Source of the DNA: an uncultured Pelagibacteraceae bacterium
GTDB taxonomy: Bacteria > Pseudomonadota > Alphaproteobacteria > Pelagibacterales > Pelagibacteraceae
Direction: 5' to 3'
DNA length: 50,943 nt
Assembly (NCBI GenBank): GCA_902588625.1
Contig: CACIPU010000007.1
Coordinates: forward strand, 1-50,943
The notes beneath the pieces are model-generated. The model saw only the letters and a program-made list of their open reading frames with translations, was not told the DNA's origin and did not search any database. The position numbers and the translations under genes are program-made. This document shows positions 5,326 through 40,126 of the stretch, piece by piece (positions within the stretch are counted from its first letter, which is position 1; each line of letters starts with the position of its first letter).

Positions 5326-6417
5326 ATGATTAGATCTTTTTTAATAAATAAATATCTTTCAAAAGAATTTTCAAAAGTAATTCTTAATACAATTTTAACA
5401 TTTTTTTTCTTAGGTTTTATTATGAATTTATTTGAAGAAATAAATTTTTTTAAAGACATAGATAATCAAATATATATACCTATGCTTCTTACCTCATTAA
5501 AAGTGCCCAGCCTATTGTATGAAATGTTACCTTTTATAGTTTTAATATCTGGGATGTTGTTTTTTCTAAAAATAAAAAAAAGTGATGAAATTATTGCGAT
5601 GAAAGTTTCTGGAATGTCAAATTTTTCCGTCATTTTAATTCCGAGTCTTGTGTCAATGATTTTAGGTGTAATTTTTATTACATCGATTAATCCAATTACT
5701 TCTGTTGCTTTAAAAAAATATGAATTAATTAAAGGAGGATATGAAAGAGATAAAGATTATTTAGCTGCAATTACAAAAAATGGTATTTGGATAAAAGAAA
5801 AAAAAAATAATAAGAGTAATATAATTAGGGCCGCAAGTTTAAAAGGTAACAATTTGATGAGTCTTACGATTTACAAATTTGATGAAAATAATAATTTTGA
5901 TAAAAGGATAGAAGCAGATTATGCTGATATTTATTCTCAGTCCTGGGTATTAAATAATGTAAAAATAATCGATAAAAATGGAATAATCCTCGAGAGCGAT
6001 GATGAAGGGAATATATACGAAAGTATATATAATTTAGAAAAAATAAAAACTTTATATTCAAATTTAGAGACAATTTCATTTTGGAAAATTAATAGTGAAA
6101 TAAAGCTTTTAGCAGAACGTGGATATTCAACAAAACAGATGGAAACTAAATTGCAAAAATCACTTTCCTTTCCTCTCTTTCTTTTAGCAATGCTTTTACT
6201 TAGTGGCGTATTTACTCTGGGTTTGAATTACAAGGAAAATAATTACTTTATATATTTTATAACAATAATTACATGTGTTTTGGTTTATTTCTTAAATGAC
6301 TTTTCTGGAGCTTTAGGAAAAACTGAAAAACTATCGGTAGAAATTGCTGTATGGATGCCAATATTGATAATTTTTATTTTCAGTTCTGTGGGGATTATTC
6401 ATGCTAATCAAAAATAA
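5326..6417 (+). CDS. lptG: LPS export permease LptG
   Basis: Partner of LptF in the same ABC transporter, with the same layout: membrane helices near residues 15-38, 55-80 and 98-122, a periplasmic jellyroll, and three C-terminal helices from about residue 278. KKSDEIIAMKVSGMS near residue 84 is the typical cytoplasmic coupling segment after the second helix. Gene order lptF-lptG followed by lptD supports assigning the second copy as lptG. The stop is directly followed by the preferred lptD start. Confidence 0.93.
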   Translation: MIRSFLINKYLSKEFSKVILNTILTFFFLGFIMNLFEEINFFKDIDNQIYIPMLLTSLKVPSLLYEMLPFIVLISGMLFFLKIKKSDEIIAMKVSGMSNFSVILIPSLVSMILGVIFITSINPITSVALKKYELIKGGYERDKDYLAAITKNGIWIKEKKNNKSNIIRAASLKGNNLMSLTIYKFDENNNFDKRIEADYADIYSQSWVLNNVKIIDKNGIILESDDEGNIYESIYNLEKIKTLYSNLETISFWKINSEIKLLAERGYSTKQMETKLQKSLSFPLFLLAMLLLSGVFTLGLNYKENNYFIYFITIITCVLVYFLNDFSGALGKTEKLSVEIAVWMPILIIFIFSSVGIIHANQK

Positions 6418-23491: not shown

Positions 23492-23565
23492 GGCCACGTG
23501 GCGGAATGGTTACGCAGAGGATTGCAAATCCTTGTATCCCAGTTCGATTCTGGGCGTGGCCTCCA
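23492..23565 (+). tRNA. tRNA-Cys (GCA)
   Basis: A complete cloverleaf: acceptor GGCCACG pairs with CGTGGCC, the anticodon stem GAGGA/TCCTT encloses loop TTGCAAA with anticodon GCA, the T arm reads CCCAG-TTCGATT-CTGGG, and the discriminator T is followed by an encoded CCA. It lies 46 bases upstream of the interrupted tRNA-Asn. Confidence 0.96.
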
Positions 23566-23611
23566 AAGTTTATTGTTGTTTTACCTTAAAAAAAAAGTAT
23601 CTTGGCCCTAT

Positions 23612-23650
23612 TCCTCGGTAGCTCAGTTGGTAGAGCAGTTGACTGTTAAT
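23612..23650 (+). tRNA. tRNA-Asn (GTT), 5' half only, cut at the prophage border
   Basis: The run TCCTCGGTAGCTCAGTTGG and the following GTAGAGCAGTTGACTGTT, then AAT, match bacterial tRNA-Asn from the acceptor 5' strand through the D arm, anticodon stem and anticodon GTT. After 23,650 the sequence no longer supplies the 3' anticodon stem, T arm or acceptor strand. The break beside an integrase gene marks the left attachment site. An intact copy is expected at the unseen right border, or elsewhere in the genome. Confidence 0.9.
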
Positions 23651-23683
23651 TTCTCCACAAATTCAACTCTGCATTGTTAAACA

Positions 23684-23863
23684 ACTAACAATGGAGGTAT
23701 ATGCTTTTAAGTGGATTTTCCAAGACAATCTCATGTCTTGATTATTTGATGAAAATTAATTCATCAGAAATTCATCATCAATTTATTACAACTCTAAAGA
23801 ACATAGTAATCAGAGTAGTTGACTTGGTGTTGTGGAATAAGCTGACGAAGCTATAAATAATAT
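23684..23863 (+). repeat. attL-proximal leader block of the integrase gene (copy A)
   Basis: Non-coding DNA between the attL core and the integrase start. It holds ACTAACAA (23,684), ATGGAG (23,691), TTTAAGT (23,706), a hairpin CAAGACA/TGTCTTG (23,721-23,740), three TTCATC half-sites in both orientations (23,749-23,777), AGAGTAGTTGACT (23,812) and AAGCTGACG (23,839). The same landmarks recur in the same order at 34,146-34,294. Repeated TTCATCA motifs next to a core are the kind of arrangement integrase arm sites or excisionase sites have; that role is inferred. Confidence 0.6.
23721..23740 (+). repeat. Inverted repeat before integrase
   Basis: CAAGACA and TGTCTTG form a perfect 7-bp stem with a 6-base loop. 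It could be a small terminator (weak T content follows) shielding the integrase from tRNA read-through, or a protein-binding site in the attachment region. It is absent from the otherwise similar copy B at 34.2 kb. Confidence 0.45.
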
Positions 23864-25138
23864 ATGGATAACATATACAGAGTAACACCACTAAAACGAA
23901 AAAAAGGTAAGGTATATATAGTTCAAAGGATTGCTGACAGAAAACAAGTTGGCAAAGCTTTTGAAAAAAGATCTTTAGCTTATCAAGAAGTTGATAATCT
24001 TATGGCTAAAGTTGCCGAGCAAAACGGAGCATCAAACGAAACAGGATTAACTTTCGTAGATGCTTTTAAAAAGTTTGCTGATTGGAAAAAATCTCAAGCT
24101 ACAGCAACAAGTAGATTTACCAAGCATTCAGCAGAAAGATATGATCAAGAATTTAGATTAAGAATATCTAAATATATAGATCATAAAATATTGCTTTCAA
24201 AATTTAATCTGAAAAATATGGAAGATTTTTTGAAAGTAGCTTATGATGATGGAGTTCCATTTAAGACACTTAGAAAATGTGTTAAAGATATTAAACATTT
24301 TTTAAAACGACAAAAAGCCATCGGTAATAAGCCATGTATGGATATGATAGAATTTAATATTCTTCAATACCATTACGTTGTTCCAAATGATGATGATCTT
24401 CTTTTCAAAAAAGAAGTTGAACTTATTGATGATGTAAAGATTGTAGAGATCATTGGTGAGTATTATCAAAATCTTTGGAATGATGTTGATGCAGCAAATA
24501 CTTTTGCAATTTTTAGTATGCTGTTTTTGTTTGGATTAAGAGCATCTGAACTAAGCGGTATTAAAAAATCTGCAATAGATTTTGATAGAAGTTTGTTGCA
24601 CATCAAAGGTATTTATATTCCAGCAGAAGGTGGATTTTTAAACCGAACTAAAAACAGAGGTAGCAGACAGCCAAGACCTATAGGTGATGATGCTAAGAAG
24701 TTTTTAAATGTTTGGCTTGCTTATCTGGAGAAGAATTATAAATATTCTAATTGGTTGTTTCCTTCCATGAAAGGTGATGGACCATTAGGTTATAAATACA
24801 TCAATTCTCATGTTTGGAAAGCTTATGCTAAAATGGGGTTAGCGGAAATTGAAGTTAGAAAAGATGGTCATGTTAAGATCATTAAATCTCCGTTAAAACA
24901 TTATCCAACAAAAGTATTTAGACATCGTTTGGGTTCATCATTAATTGAAGCGATGCATAAATATAATGAGCTAAGTAAAAATCAAGTTAAACGTATTGTT
25001 GGTCATACTCAGTTTTCAACGACAGCTGAGATTTATGGCAACAAACTATTAAGAGGAACACCAGAAGAAAGAGCAGCGCTTGCTAGAGCAAAAGAAAAAG
25101 CAACTAATGCTAATCTTTTAACTAAGTTAATTACATAA
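23864..25138 (+). CDS. int: Tyrosine-type site-specific integrase
   Basis: Catalyses insertion and excision of the prophage. The 424-residue protein has an N-terminal arm-binding region (1-60), a core-binding SAM-like domain (about 65-180), and a catalytic domain. Catalytic residues seen: Arg226 in GLRASEL, Arg353 in VFRHRL, His381 in VGHTQFS and Tyr391 in TAEIYG. The usual His three residues before the second Arg is a Lys (Lys350), a tolerated substitution in some family members. It lies about 210 bases from the cut tRNA-Asn and ends 12 bases before a hairpin copying part of that tRNA. Confidence 0.96.
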   Translation: MDNIYRVTPLKRKKGKVYIVQRIADRKQVGKAFEKRSLAYQEVDNLMAKVAEQNGASNETGLTFVDAFKKFADWKKSQATATSRFTKHSAERYDQEFRLRISKYIDHKILLSKFNLKNMEDFLKVAYDDGVPFKTLRKCVKDIKHFLKRQKAIGNKPCMDMIEFNILQYHYVVPNDDDLLFKKEVELIDDVKIVEIIGEYYQNLWNDVDAANTFAIFSMLFLFGLRASELSGIKKSAIDFDRSLLHIKGIYIPAEGGFLNRTKNRGSRQPRPIGDDAKKFLNVWLAYLEKNYKYSNWLFPSMKGDGPLGYKYINSHVWKAYAKMGLAEIEVRKDGHVKIIKSPLKHYPTKVFRHRLGSSLIEAMHKYNELSKNQVKRIVGHTQFSTTAEIYGNKLLRGTPEERAALARAKEKATNANLLTKLIT

Positions 25139-27934: not shown

Positions 27935-28085
27935 TCTCTTTATAATCCTTATGACCACGTTGAATAAAAAACTCAACTGTCTTTGACATACTAATAGGCA
28001 ATTCGAATTTCTTTTGAGATAACTCTTCAAGCAATTTGTATGTTTGAATATTTATCGCTACAGATTTGAATTTGTCTGGGTTCAT
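27912..28085 (-). CDS. Ribbon-helix-helix (Arc/CopG-like) small DNA-binding protein
   Basis: A 57-residue frame whose ATG shares a base with the preceding stop at 28,085. It opens with a strand-like FKSVAINIQTYKLLEEL, then SMSKTVEFFIQRG: the beta strand, helix, helix order with a Ser-x-Ser-x-x-V helix cap typical of RHH repressors. Ends RQSK. Likely an autoregulator or early switch protein. The family assignment is by pattern only. Confidence 0.65.
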   Translation of the reverse strand: MNPDKFKSVAINIQTYKLLEELSQKKFELPISMSKTVEFFIQRGHKDYKENGKRQSK

Positions 28086-28363
28086 TATGCCTCCAACTCC
28101 GATGGCTGGAATGATGTATCACCTGCTGGTGTTCCTCCAGGTGCTTGATCTTCTAATGGTTCAACTCTGTAAAAGTAATAATATTCACTACCTTTAGGCA
28201 TTTTACCATTTCCACTTGCCTGGCTTTTATATGCGCCAAACTTATATTTCTTTCCATCAACTACGATGTTTCCAGAAAGATCATAACTTTGTGGGGTTTT
28301 TTTATTGACTACTGGAATAGCAATTCCAAGGTCAGGTCGTTTTTTTTTAGTTTCTTCAGTCAT
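28085..28363 (-). CDS. Small phage protein next to the annealing protein
   Basis: 92 residues: Lys-rich start, a compact beta-rich core (SGNIVVDGKKYKFGAYKSQ, EYYYFYRVEP) and a Gly/Pro/Asp-rich tail. The acidic, flexible tail after a small beta core recalls single-stranded DNA-binding proteins, but no OB-fold signature is clear. It sits one base after the annealing-protein gene, so a role in recombination or replication is plausible and no more. Confidence 0.55.
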   Translation of the reverse strand: MTEETKKKRPDLGIAIPVVNKKTPQSYDLSGNIVVDGKKYKFGAYKSQASGNGKMPKGSEYYYFYRVEPLEDQAPGGTPAGDTSFQPSELEA

Positions 28364-28956
28364 TACTGAATAACTCCTTTTGATTTAAGGTTAGATTTAA
28401 TGGTTGTGTACTCGCTCATAAAACTTTGGTACGTCAAAGGATTAGTTTCCTTTAAGGTACTCAAAAAGGTCTTATAATTAGTCAACCACTGATTAAATGA
28501 TCCTGCATGAGAAATTGTTTTCAATTCCGACAAAGCTTTTTGGATCTTTTTGTCTTGCTGCTCTATTGCAGCTGATACTTCTTCTGCTGATGCAATGCTG
28601 TCATTAGTAATTCCTAAAAAACTACACATCCTACCGATTGCGCTAGTTTCTGCGTTCTCAAGTGCTGATGTTTGATTTATTCTGGATGCAGTTCTTTTTT
28701 CTTCTGCATGACCTGTTGCAACAACTTTTCCATCAATAGTTCCTGTTGCTTTTACAACAACAGTATCTTTATCAATAGAAATTATTTCTGTAGTGATGGT
28801 AAGACTTGTTCCAAGTACACGCCTTGCAACTGCAATTCTTAAAGCTACTGTAGCGTACTCCTTTTGATGTATGGATATTGTATTTCCTTTTAAAGATTTT
28901 TTAAATTCAGAAATAGTTTTAACAAGTTTATCTTCACCAATTATAGTATTAGCCAT
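28363..28956 (-). CDS. Putative single-strand annealing protein (Erf/Rad52-like)
   Basis: 197 residues. The N-terminal part is beta-rich (IAVARRVLGTSLTITTEIISI), followed by ATGHAEEKRTASRINQTSAL and ENAETSAIGRMCSFLGI near residues 83-120. The ...A.GHAEE.R....N.TSALENAETSAIGR...LG pattern is the one I associate with phage proteins annotated as Erf/Sak-type annealases. The C-terminal third is helical and may oligomerise. The gene for a PD-(D/E)XK nuclease is two genes upstream, the usual two-part recombinase arrangement. Family call is moderately secure. Confidence 0.65.
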   Translation of the reverse strand: MANTIIGEDKLVKTISEFKKSLKGNTISIHQKEYATVALRIAVARRVLGTSLTITTEIISIDKDTVVVKATGTIDGKVVATGHAEEKRTASRINQTSALENAETSAIGRMCSFLGITNDSIASAEEVSAAIEQQDKKIQKALSELKTISHAGSFNQWLTNYKTFLSTLKETNPLTYQSFMSEYTTIKSNLKSKGVIQ

Positions 28957-29069
28957 GTTATTACTCCTAATATTATGATTAAAGATATAGCGATTTTAAT
29001 ACGTATTCGCTTTTCACGTTGAGCTGCTTCTTGCAGATCTCTTTTTAAATCTTCAGACATATAATTCAT
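28941..29069 (-). CDS. 42-residue single-membrane-span protein
   Basis: From the ATG at 29,069 (sharing a base with the nuclease stop): a charged N-terminal helix (SEDLKRDLQEAAQREKR) and a C-terminal hydrophobic segment of Ile/Leu (IAISLIIILGVITWLIL). It ends inside the start of the annealing gene. Translation could also begin at the fourth codon (second Met). One membrane helix and no motif; function unknown. Confidence 0.55.
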   Translation of the reverse strand: MNYMSEDLKRDLQEAAQREKRIRIKIAISLIIILGVITWLIL

Positions 29070-30139
29070 TAAACTACTCCCCACATCGATTTGATTTCTT
29101 GTAAAACATCTTTAGGATAATTATTCCAACACCAAGGATGGTCAAACATTGGATCCATAATTTCTATGGCTCCAGCTATAATTTCTTCTTTAGTTTTATC
29201 TTCGTTAAGTGCTAATATTTTTTCTCTTCTTCTAAAAACATTCAACATAATTTGAAAATTCTTTTTAAGTCCTTCAACTGTAAGACCTGGACAATTATTA
29301 GAAGTAAAAACTTTGTAGCCTTGTTCTGTTACATAAAGTAAATAAACAGGAACTTTGAATTGATAGTAAGCTGCATAACAAGCACATTGAATTAAATGAT
29401 TGAAGCTTGGTGTAGTTGGTGGAGCTACTTTAACAAAAGATCTGCTTCCATCTTTTTTTATTTTGCCTAGTCTCGAATATTTCGTCTTGAGTTCGATAAG
29501 TTTTTGTGGAAAGGCTGCCGTAGCAGTCGGACTGGTCTCATGAGGAGACTTGCCACCGAACACAGAACCACCGAACTCAAAATCTGAACGTCCTACAATT
29601 GATAGAGAACAAGGAAGAAAAAAACCATCAATATTGTCAGACGTTAAACTGATTTGCTTTTCACATATAACTGGAGAAGCTAAACCAATTTCTTCATTTA
29701 GCGCTTTGAAGCCATTTGTAACCAACTGAGGTATTTCCTCTAAGTATTTTTGATGCTTAGTTCTGTCGTTGTCATCCGTTGGTATATAATTTTTGTACTT
29801 TTCTAATTCTTCCTGCAAACATTCTTCTTTTTTAAGCTTAGTCCATTTAACAGGAGATAATTTTTTTGCTGAATTAAGTTTCCATATTTCATCAGCTAAA
29901 ACATTTTGTAAAACATTACCTACACAAATACCTGCTGCCATAGCTGCATTAGGTTTAAGTATTCTTCGTCTAGTTTCTTGGTTCATCCAGACGTACTCGA
30001 TTAACCAACTAGCATCAGGTTTTGCAAATTGCGATGGACTGAAATGATTTATTGAAAGCTTTTGTGCGAAGAGAGGAAGTAGTTTTTTCTTTTGAATATC
30101 TTTTAAAGGATCATCCGAAACTTTTGTAGTTAATGTCAT
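29069..30139 (-). CDS. PD-(D/E)XK nuclease (RecB/Cas4-like), with an unusual insertion
   Basis: 356 residues. The active-site pattern is Asp186 in VGRSDFEF, Glu216 and Lys218 in LIELKTKYSR, and the following helix HLIQCACYAAYY with Gln251, as in RecB-family exonucleases. A partner annealase is encoded two genes downstream, so a phage recombination pair is likely. Between Asp186 and Glu216 lies a Gly/Ser/Thr/Ala-rich stretch (GGSVFGGKSPHETSPTATAA) whose DNA is much more GC-rich than its surroundings and folds strongly (separate entry). In related nucleases this gap is usually about half as long. Confidence 0.8.
   Translation of the reverse strand: MTLTTKVSDDPLKDIQKKKLLPLFAQKLSINHFSPSQFAKPDASWLIEYVWMNQETRRRILKPNAAMAAGICVGNVLQNVLADEIWKLNSAKKLSPVKWTKLKKEECLQEELEKYKNYIPTDDNDRTKHQKYLEEIPQLVTNGFKALNEEIGLASPVICEKQISLTSDNIDGFFLPCSLSIVGRSDFEFGGSVFGGKSPHETSPTATAAFPQKLIELKTKYSRLGKIKKDGSRSFVKVAPPTTPSFNHLIQCACYAAYYQFKVPVYLLYVTEQGYKVFTSNNCPGLTVEGLKKNFQIMLNVFRRREKILALNEDKTKEEIIAGAIEIMDPMFDHPWCWNNYPKDVLQEIKSMWGVV
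29485..29582 (-). repeat. GC-rich structured in-frame insertion in the nuclease gene
   Basis: In minus-strand RNA the segment is closed by an 11-bp stem (29,572-29,582 with 29,485-29,495; core GAGUUCG/CGAACUC, one G-U). Inside are GUCUC-CUCAU-GAGAC, a CUGC-UACG-GCAG hairpin with a UNCG-type loop, a possible GUGG/CCAC stem, and a direct repeat GTTCGGTGG. The reading frame passes through. The density of pairing and the base composition differ sharply from the rest of the gene. No known ribozyme or leader consensus was matched by eye. Confidence 0.6.
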
Positions 30140-34556: not shown

Positions 34557-35827
34557 TGAAAATTACTATACCGTACAAACCAAGAGTGCAGCAAAACTTT
34601 CTGCACCAGACTTTAAGAAAACATAGATACGCATTACTGCTTTGCCATCGAAGGTTTGGCAAAACAACAATGTGTTTAAACCACATTATTCGAGAGGCTT
34701 TATTAAATAAAAATCATAATCCAAGATACGCATACATAGCACCAACTTATAAACAGGCTAAAAGCATTGCTTGGGATTTTTTAAAACACTACGCATCAAA
34801 AGTGCCTGGTGTTAAATTTAACGAAACAGAATTACGATGCGACTTTCCAAACAAAAGTCGTATTACTTTACTGGGTGCTGAGAATTTTGAAAACTTGAGA
34901 GGAAATTATTACGATGGATGCGTAATTGACGAAACAAGTTTAATTCCAGCATCGCTGATCGAAGAGGTTTTAACGCCTGCTCTATCAGATCGTAAAGGCT
35001 TTATGTATCTTGTAGGAACACCTCAAGGTATGAATAATATTTTTTATGAATATTATTTAAAAGCTCAAGGCGACAAAAATTGGCTACTCTATACTGCTAA
35101 AGCTAGCGAAACAAAAATCGTTGACCAGGAAGAGCTAGACCAAGCGTTATCCTTAATGGGTAGCGCAAAATATAATCAAGAGTTTGAATGCTCTTGGATA
35201 GGTAATGTTCCTGGAAGTATTTATAATGATGAGCTTGAAGTCTTAGAAGATAACAAACGCTTGACGTCTGTTCCTTTTGATCCTGCTTATCCTGTTCATA
35301 CTTCTTTTGATATTGGTTATAATGATGATACGGCTATAATTTTCTTTCAAGATATTCGTAGTCAAATTCACATTATTGATTGCTTTGCCGATCACAACCA
35401 GCCATTTCCTTATTATGCAGAAATCCTAAAACAAAAACCGTATTCGTATGGTTATCATTTAGCTCCGCATGATATTGAAGTTAGCGAATACTCTTCAGGT
35501 AAAACAAGAAGAGAAGTTGCTTATCAACATGGAATAAAATTTAGAGTAGTACCAAAAACTTTATTAGATGATGGTATTCACGCAGTTAAAATGATTTTGC
35601 CTAGATGTAAAATTAATGTTGATACGTGCAAACCTTTAGTGGATGCGCTTCGACATTATCATCGTAAGTATATTGAAAAAGATAGAATATTTAAAACCAA
35701 ACCTGTTCATGACTGGAGTTCTCATTTTTGCGATAGCATGAGAGTTTTAGCAACAGGATTTGAAGAACCTAAATATCAAAACGCCAATCGCCAACGAACA
35801 GCAATAAGTGAGTATAAAATAATATGA
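34556..35827 (+). CDS. terL: Terminase large subunit
   Basis: ATPase-nuclease that drives DNA into the prohead and cuts it. 423 residues: Walker A LLCHRRFGKTTM (residues 28-39), Walker B GCVIDETS (121-128), coupling motif YLVGTPQGMNN near 151, and the RNase H-like nuclease domain starting FDIGYNDDTAII with Asp252 and later Asp residues (HDWSSHFCDSMR near 390). The length is normal for a short terminase. It overlaps the next gene by 4 bases. Confidence 0.95.
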   Translation: MKITIPYKPRVQQNFLHQTLRKHRYALLLCHRRFGKTTMCLNHIIREALLNKNHNPRYAYIAPTYKQAKSIAWDFLKHYASKVPGVKFNETELRCDFPNKSRITLLGAENFENLRGNYYDGCVIDETSLIPASLIEEVLTPALSDRKGFMYLVGTPQGMNNIFYEYYLKAQGDKNWLLYTAKASETKIVDQEELDQALSLMGSAKYNQEFECSWIGNVPGSIYNDELEVLEDNKRLTSVPFDPAYPVHTSFDIGYNDDTAIIFFQDIRSQIHIIDCFADHNQPFPYYAEILKQKPYSYGYHLAPHDIEVSEYSSGKTRREVAYQHGIKFRVVPKTLLDDGIHAVKMILPRCKINVDTCKPLVDALRHYHRKYIEKDRIFKTKPVHDWSSHFCDSMRVLATGFEEPKYQNANRQRTAISEYKII

Positions 35828-39253: not shown

Positions 39254-40126
39254 ATGAGTGTAAATATAACAACTAGTTTTGTTGAGCAGTATTCGGCTAA
39301 TGTGTCGATGCTGGCACAACAAACAGGCTCGAAATTACGAGGCGCTGTTGATGTGGAAAACGTAAGAGGAAAAAACGCATTCTTCGATCAAGTCGGAGTT
39401 ACTGCTGCTCAATTAAAAACGAGCAGACATAGCGATACACCTCAAATCGATACGCCACATTCAAGACGTAGAGTAAGTTTGAGTACATACGAGTGGGGAG
39501 ATTTAGTTGACGATGCCGACAAAGTTCGTGCATTGATCGATCCAACTAGCACATACGCAAGAGCGGCTGCTGCTGCAATGAATAGAAGTATTGATGATGT
39601 CATCATTACAGCTATGAATGCTTCAGCTGACACAGGCGTTGCTGGTGGAACTTCAACTGCGCTTCCTAGTGGTCAAAAGACTGCAACATCAGACCAATCA
39701 GATGGTTTGACTATTGCAAAACTTAGATCTGCTAAATACATACTGGACAACAACGATGTCGATCCGTCTTTAAGACGTTTCGTAGTTTGTGGTCCAAAAC
39801 AAATTCAAGATTTACTTGCAACTACTGAAGTTACTTCAAGTGATTTCAATGTTGTTAAGGCGCTAGCTGCTGGACAAGTAGATAGTTTTCTTGGGTTTAA
39901 TTTTATAATGTCAACAAGACTGAACAAAGACGCTACGCATACGTCTGACAGATTAGTTTTTGCATTTACGGAAGATGCAGTAAAACTAGCTATCGGAAAA
40001 GATGTAACAGCAAAAATTTCAGAGAGAGCTGACAAATCTTACAGTACACAAGTTTATTACTGTATGGATCTTGGCGCTACTCGTATGGAAGAAGAAAAAG
40101 TTGTTCAGATACCTTGTCACGAGTAA
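39254..40126 (+). CDS. Major capsid protein
   Basis: 290 residues. N-terminal segment SFVEQYSANVSMLAQQTGSK, the E-loop-like part with NVRGKNAFFDQVG and SRRRVSLSTYEWGDLVDDAD, an A-domain with RRFVVCGPKQIQDLLA, and the end GATRMEEEKVVQIPC. This is the HK97-fold capsid type common to marine and phiKMV-like podoviruses. It has its own leader and strong ribosome site, and its codon use is richer in G and C than neighbours, as expected for a highly expressed gene. Confidence 0.9.
   Translation: MSVNITTSFVEQYSANVSMLAQQTGSKLRGAVDVENVRGKNAFFDQVGVTAAQLKTSRHSDTPQIDTPHSRRRVSLSTYEWGDLVDDADKVRALIDPTSTYARAAAAAMNRSIDDVIITAMNASADTGVAGGTSTALPSGQKTATSDQSDGLTIAKLRSAKYILDNNDVDPSLRRFVVCGPKQIQDLLATTEVTSSDFNVVKALAAGQVDSFLGFNFIMSTRLNKDATHTSDRLVFAFTEDAVKLAIGKDVTAKISERADKSYSTQVYYCMDLGATRMEEEKVVQIPCHE

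Follow-up and report, generated by a model that had tools for sequence, protein, structure and literature searches.

The window, a stretch of 50,943 bases of contig CACIPU010000007.1 (assembly GCA_902588625.1) from an uncultured Pelagibacteraceae bacterium, carries genes that, by their content and relatives, appear to form a prophage akin to Pelagibacter phage HTVC028P; it is on these phage relatives that the assignment of the genome to the SAR11 type rests. A tRNA-Cys gene at 23,492–23,565 is followed by a phage integrase gene at 23,864–25,138, and this pair (23,492–25,138) marks the probable prophage attachment site; the contig, whose end may fall inside the prophage, contains no repeat of the tRNA end of at least 14 bases. 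From 33.7 kb onward there are genes for terminase, head-tail adaptor and capsid. On the minus strand, the gene at 29,069–30,139 encodes a protein of 356 amino acids that shares 52% identity with gp07 of HTVC028P, a 'putative nuclease'. This protein matched nothing in Pfam or in PHROGs; its motif VGRxDF...E-K-T (GRxD plus ExKT) is invariant across the nuclease relatives, and its predicted model gave weak fold matches (best E 0.0029) to the Cas4 family, AdnAB (AdnB), AddAB (AddB) and MGME1. Because of these invariant motifs and fold matches, the product would fit a PD-(D/E)xK exonuclease. The nuclease gene sits upstream of a gene in the phage annealing-protein position, whose product matches PHROG 11717 (function unknown); this neighbour is named 'annealase' here because related phages carry a single-strand annealing protein gene at the same position.

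The AlphaFold2 model of the nuclease, with a pLDDT of 82, places the catalytic residues on two strands formed by residues 180–189 and 213–219. Since residues 192–207, encoded by the heart of the RNA described below, fall below a pLDDT of 50, the peptide between these strands is predicted to be a disordered excursion and a tolerant site of the protein.

Fold and architecture of the messenger segment

The loop between catalytic Asp186 and Glu216 is encoded by 98 bases (29,485–29,582, minus strand), which constitute the RNA element on the sense strand of the nuclease gene. A previous sequence-only reading had drawn attention to this segment as GC-rich and highly folded, and its coordinates, reading frame and stems were all reproduced, namely the outer stem TTGAGTTCG/CGAACTCAA, the GUCUC/GAGAC helix and the CUGC-UACG-GCAG hairpin, together with the direct repeat GTTCGGTGG, which does occur twice in the element. 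The segment holds the highest-GC 60-nt stretch of the whole window (60%, where the gene averages 33.8% and the window 29.7%), a value reached by about 4 in 100,000 segments of that size. Its minimum free energy of −35.7 kcal/mol corresponds to a z-score of −3.8 versus dinucleotide shuffles, with none of 200 as good. Moreover, when the peptide was recoded at random with synonymous codons, none of 400 versions was as stable (z −5.4), and a synonymous-codon scan of 32 ORFs ranked the element second among 891 coding windows (z −5.7; background mean −0.42, standard deviation 1.29). Both strands of the element fold well in the window itself, and the strand had to be tested separately because the antisense folds strongly as well. 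As regards frameshifting, no slippery heptamer was evident by eye at the element, and its outer stem begins directly at the catalytic Asp codon.

A single architecture was found in the mRNA of 23 carriers of the element, in which an outer stem (P1) is followed by P2, P3 and P4 around a junction that ends in the unpaired strand CCUUUC. Read 5′ to 3′ on the sense strand, the order is P1, P2, one base, P3, P4 directly abutting P3, the unpaired CCUUUC, and then the closing strands of P2 and P1; in the computed fold, the core is a three-way junction of P2, P3 and P4 closed by P1. All of the following positions refer to the minus strand. The 5′ strand of P1 (29,566–29,582) comprises the codons of DFEFGG and gave a z-score of −5.2 versus synonymous versions, while its 3′ strand (29,485–29,502), the codons of LIELKT, was assigned from the fold and the P1 codon test. 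In P2, UGUG (29,561–29,564) pairs and covaries with CACA (29,505–29,508), and the pair is found as AAUG/CAUU in L011, as UGAG/CUCA in L017 and L215, and as UGUG/CGCA in L048 and L171. P3 is formed by UCGG (29,556–29,559) and CCGA (29,527–29,530), and silent compensated pairs were observed in it twice, U-A in L010 and A-U in L034.

The loop of P3 takes two forms. In about half of the members it is UGNAAAU, which is compatible with a T-loop, while members of the window type have an additional hairpin there that opens the loop and covaries, P3b (GUCUC-CUCAU-GAGAC, 29,535–29,549), with counterparts in relatives that read CUUC/GAAG, ACUC/GAGU and ACCU/AGGU. P4, the hairpin CUGC-UACG-GCAG (29,515–29,526) placed right after P3, is hypervariable in sequence and in length, ranging from 12 to 66 nt and always in multiples of three. 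The junction strand CCUUUC (29,509–29,514), read as the codons GCC TTT C, lies in the loop of every carrier. The GCC codon, which supplies the first two bases of this strand, is fixed at the junction in 23 of 23 carriers, and accounted for 15 of 322 (4.7%) of the other alanine codons in the 16 carriers tallied. L049, L053 and L047 have otherwise different loops, and they too contain CCUUUC, read there in another frame. Furthermore, a candidate hairpin upstream of the element (P0, UUGAUGG...CUAUCAA, 29,599–29,631) covers the codons of the adjacent beta-turn in the nuclease; this hairpin is weak in the window (z 0.35), and z-scores below −3 were obtained for it in L150, L034, L027, L031 and L092.

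The search of the window against Rfam 15 returned only tRNA-Cys at gathering level, and nothing relevant was obtained for the element at E up to 5 or for five relatives at E up to 1. The RNA had not been matched to a known class by eye, and the covariance-model search likewise left it without a match; the suggestion that it might be ribozyme-like was not borne out, as the element matches none of the ribozyme families of Rfam and there is no hint of cleavage. The sequence UCGG-UGNAAAU-CCGA fits the UNNRA pattern of T-loop RNAs, such as the tRNA T arm and the TPP riboswitch, in about half of the members, a likeness that is to be read as resemblance only; unlike those RNAs, the window-type members carry an extra hairpin in place of the loop, and no Rfam match accompanies it.

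Constraint at the level of RNA

The fold was compared in 24 homologues with 400 random synonymous versions of each, drawn with the codon usage of the gene family. In 12 of them none of the 400 versions was as stable (z down to −6.4), and the sense fold was more extreme than the antisense fold in 19 of the 24. In most homologues, few or none of the windows along the gene scored lower than the element loop. The outer stem, which is built from codons of conserved residues, showed the same preference in its codon choice, with a mean z of −2.87 for sense versus −1.30 for antisense and a sense preference in 18 of 23 carriers, P1 being not significant in about a third.

Pairing in the inner stems was assessed in three ways. 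A segmentation anchored on UCGG, CCGA and CCUUUC, in which pairing in P2 or P4 was not required, gave 88 of 88 paired cells in P4, all of them Watson-Crick across 22 members, and 87 of 88 in P2. A covariance-model alignment, which itself leans to the model, gave 97.8% of cells paired versus at most 42.6% when the partner was slid, and a covariation of 0.33 versus 0.09 after shuffling. On a tree of the 23 carriers built from the rest of the gene, 26 two-sided pair-keeping changes were counted, with no one-sided change and one break attributable to a register ambiguity in L034. The paired fraction on this tree was 99.6%, versus a null mean of 76% and a null maximum of 88% with independent columns; the segmentation behind the tree counts required pairing in P3 and P4, so that the anchored counts are the less biased ones for P4 and P2. 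Only 2 of 264 cells in P2–P4 are G-U pairs, which is unusual for an RNA.

In several pairs of sequences, both sides of a stem had changed silently. In P4, the window has ACT/GCA and its nearest relative, L007, has ACA/GCT, which turns a T-A pair into A-T. Similarly, in P3, TTC/CCG in L012 corresponds to TTT/CCA in L010 (C-G to U-A), and CTC/CCG in L033 corresponds to TTA/CCT in L034 (C-G to A-U); in an extension of P4, ACT/CCA in L033 is replaced by ACA/CCT in L144. The sequence-only reading had stated that homologues with the same peptide and silent changes that destroy the stems would speak for constraint on the protein; the opposite was found, each silent change being matched by a compensating one in the partner strand. 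An explanation by the shared peptide alone is ruled out by the synonymous null and by these compensated silent changes, which also substantiate the proposal that the coding region contains an RNA structure. The element is thus held, with high confidence, to be under constraint at the RNA level, and its structure is conserved beyond what peptide and codon usage account for, as would be expected of a cis-acting RNA in a coding region.

Distribution among nuclease genes

Relatives were gathered from three sources: genomes of the same order, phage records and viral contigs. Where a carrier was retrieved with a motif pattern, the motif is there by construction; carriers retrieved by protein similarity are free of this effect. 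The same loop was found in the nuclease of every close relative, with the peptide pattern FGxxxFGxxPHExxPTxxxAFP. At the site of the element the loop measures 16–42 residues when the homologue shares about 50% protein identity or more, and four distant phages have just 8 residues there; the description of the segment as an insertion therefore holds relative to the distant homologues with the 8-residue loop and fails relative to those of about 50% identity or more. In other nuclease lineages (L013, L040 and L052) no folding signal was found versus synonymous versions, and because of this, together with the 8-residue loop of the four distant phages, the element is dispensable for the enzyme family. 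As a separate observation, the more distant nucleases L049, L051, L036, L047 and L053 have other loop sequences that fold better than their synonymous versions, with different architectures.

No second copy of the element was found in the host genome (990 kb, 78% complete). A covariance-model search of 397 genomes of the order gave strong matches only in the two genomes that carry this nuclease element, and seven weak matches with E values of 0.003–0.05 per genome, which is chance level for 397 genomes. In whole phage records, the same search gave one match per carrier record, only in the nuclease gene, and in the fetched DNA (6.8 Mb, both strands counted) structure-filtered copies occurred only in the nuclease gene and at the same site. 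Several candidate copies were examined and discarded. L164, the one of the weak genome matches that was read, lies in sequence that bears no sign of the element; the antisense match in L039 forms none of the stems when folded; and the degenerate-pattern matches to other genes in viral contigs were mainly due to chance, among the matches listed, with only nuclease copies passing the structure filter.

These results bear on the comparison with the palindromic elements of Rickettsia (RPEs), which had been put forward for this locus. Like an RPE, the element is hairpin-forming DNA in frame, encoding a disordered peptide. Unlike RPEs, it occupies a single orthologous site, and the multiple copies in unrelated genes that characterize them were not found: all true copies that were found share one gene and one site, with none in the rest of the host genome or of the phage records. 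The comparison fails because each phage record searched has one copy, none lies elsewhere and the loop is inherited with the gene.

Possible roles of the element

The reading to which we lean, with somewhat better than even confidence, is that of a conserved cis-acting structured mRNA element that occupies, in frame, the codons of a tolerant protein loop and is translated through. Because its unpaired bases are conserved, something probably reads the element, and a docking site acting in cis is preferred; the mechanism by which it would be recognized is proposed more tentatively, its function being inferred. In such a mechanism, a phage or host factor, a protein or less likely a ligand, would dock on the messenger by reading the P3 loop together with the CCUUUC strand. 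During recombination, this docking might set how the nuclease-annealase messenger is translated or processed, or how stable it is. In the free loop of the protein, the RNA could change length without harm to the enzyme. In its fullest form, to which we give a little less than an even chance, the proposal describes a factor-sensing junction RNA of a new class in marine phages, translated as part of an enzyme that would owe its disordered loop to the room required by the RNA, whose helices are free to grow and shrink three bases at a time. Pairing of CCUUUC with a Shine-Dalgarno site was also considered and rejected, as the phage part of the window has no GGAAAGG apart from the antisense strand of the element.

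Several other explanations have to be weighed against a cis-acting mRNA element. The structure might be selected in single-stranded phage DNA, as a signal for replication, priming or recombination, with the RNA fold as a by-product. The almost purely Watson-Crick pairing of P2–P4, the good folding of both strands in the window and the membership of the gene in a recombination module are in keeping with this idea; however, after correction for the peptide, the P1 and whole-element tests favour the sense strand, L049 folds only as sense (z −5.0 versus −0.2), and the conservation of single-stranded bases speaks against it, so that hairpins in DNA are considered an unlikely account. Alternatively, the RNA could merely slow the ribosome so that the two catalytic strands fold properly, with no factor reading it. 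The element lies exactly between the two active-site strands, and in some members a hairpin likewise encodes the beta-turn next to it, which agrees with such a translational pause; yet a plain pause needs no conserved unpaired bases, whereas CCUUUC and the UGNAAAU loop are conserved, the former even in another reading frame, and we accord this possibility a rather low probability. It is improbable that excision from the nuclease messenger yields a small RNA acting in trans on host or phage targets: the domain is closed and compact and its conserved single-stranded pyrimidine tract could pair with targets, but the complement of this tract, GGAAAGG, occurs in the window only on the element's own antisense strand and once at 6,167, outside the phage genes.

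The fold might also be a mutational or chance by-product with no RNA function, arising from codon bias, from the peptide or from palindrome perfecting by template switching, and the lack of G-U intermediates is what palindrome correction would produce; this account is nevertheless very improbable in view of the synonymous nulls, the conserved unpaired bases, the sense-strand bias and the persistence of the fold at about 50% protein identity. Finally, a selfish palindrome inserted in frame, as in Rickettsia, can be practically dismissed, since this in-frame, hairpin-rich, GC-rich loop in an AT-rich genome is inherited with its gene and has no convincing copy outside it in the host genome, the 397 genomes of the order, the whole phage records or the fetched DNA.

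RNA viruses are well known to have covarying RNA elements within their protein-coding genes, and the Rev response element in the HIV env gene and the picornavirus cre are cis-acting RNA elements inside viral coding regions. The phage element resembles them in that its helices, placed within an open reading frame, are conserved through compensated changes, many of them silent, and differs from these RNA virus and retrovirus elements in that its host is a gene of a double-stranded DNA phage and its helices change length in frame within a disordered loop. Another parallel is the origin of phage lambda, which lies inside the replication gene O and is also a cis-acting signal in a flexible part of a phage DNA-metabolism protein; unlike lambda ori, which is a DNA site with repeats, the element shows covariation and a sense-strand preference. 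No description of the element was found in a literature search that took in the minority of subscription papers, and this partial search likewise gave no report of a covarying RNA element within a DNA phage gene. As a kind, an RNA element in a coding region is known from RNA viruses, and the present one appears to be new as an RNA class and in an enzyme gene of a DNA phage.

The host phages are viruses of SAR11, very abundant bacteria of the ocean, and the element provides a clean comparative argument in SAR11 phages, in which silent changes are compensated across a stem. This case suggests that RNA signals can be parked in the disordered loops of phage enzymes, and that where a protein alignment shows a hypervariable loop, the messenger rather than the protein may have shaped it. 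The element is directly testable with the isolated phage HTVC028P and ordinary reporters.

Other coding regions of the window also folded strongly in comparison with their synonymous versions. The strongest such fold, with a z-score of −7.6, lies at 28,396–28,494 in the neighbouring gene in the annealing-protein position (28,363–28,956, minus strand) and is an imperfect hairpin of 36 pairs, of which 33–36 are kept in the nearest relatives and which decays in distant ones. Values of about −5 were also obtained at 35,117–35,215 (plus strand) in the gene of the terminase large subunit, at 28,199–28,297 (minus strand) in a small gene at 28,085–28,363, and at 39,287–39,385 (plus strand) in the major head protein gene.
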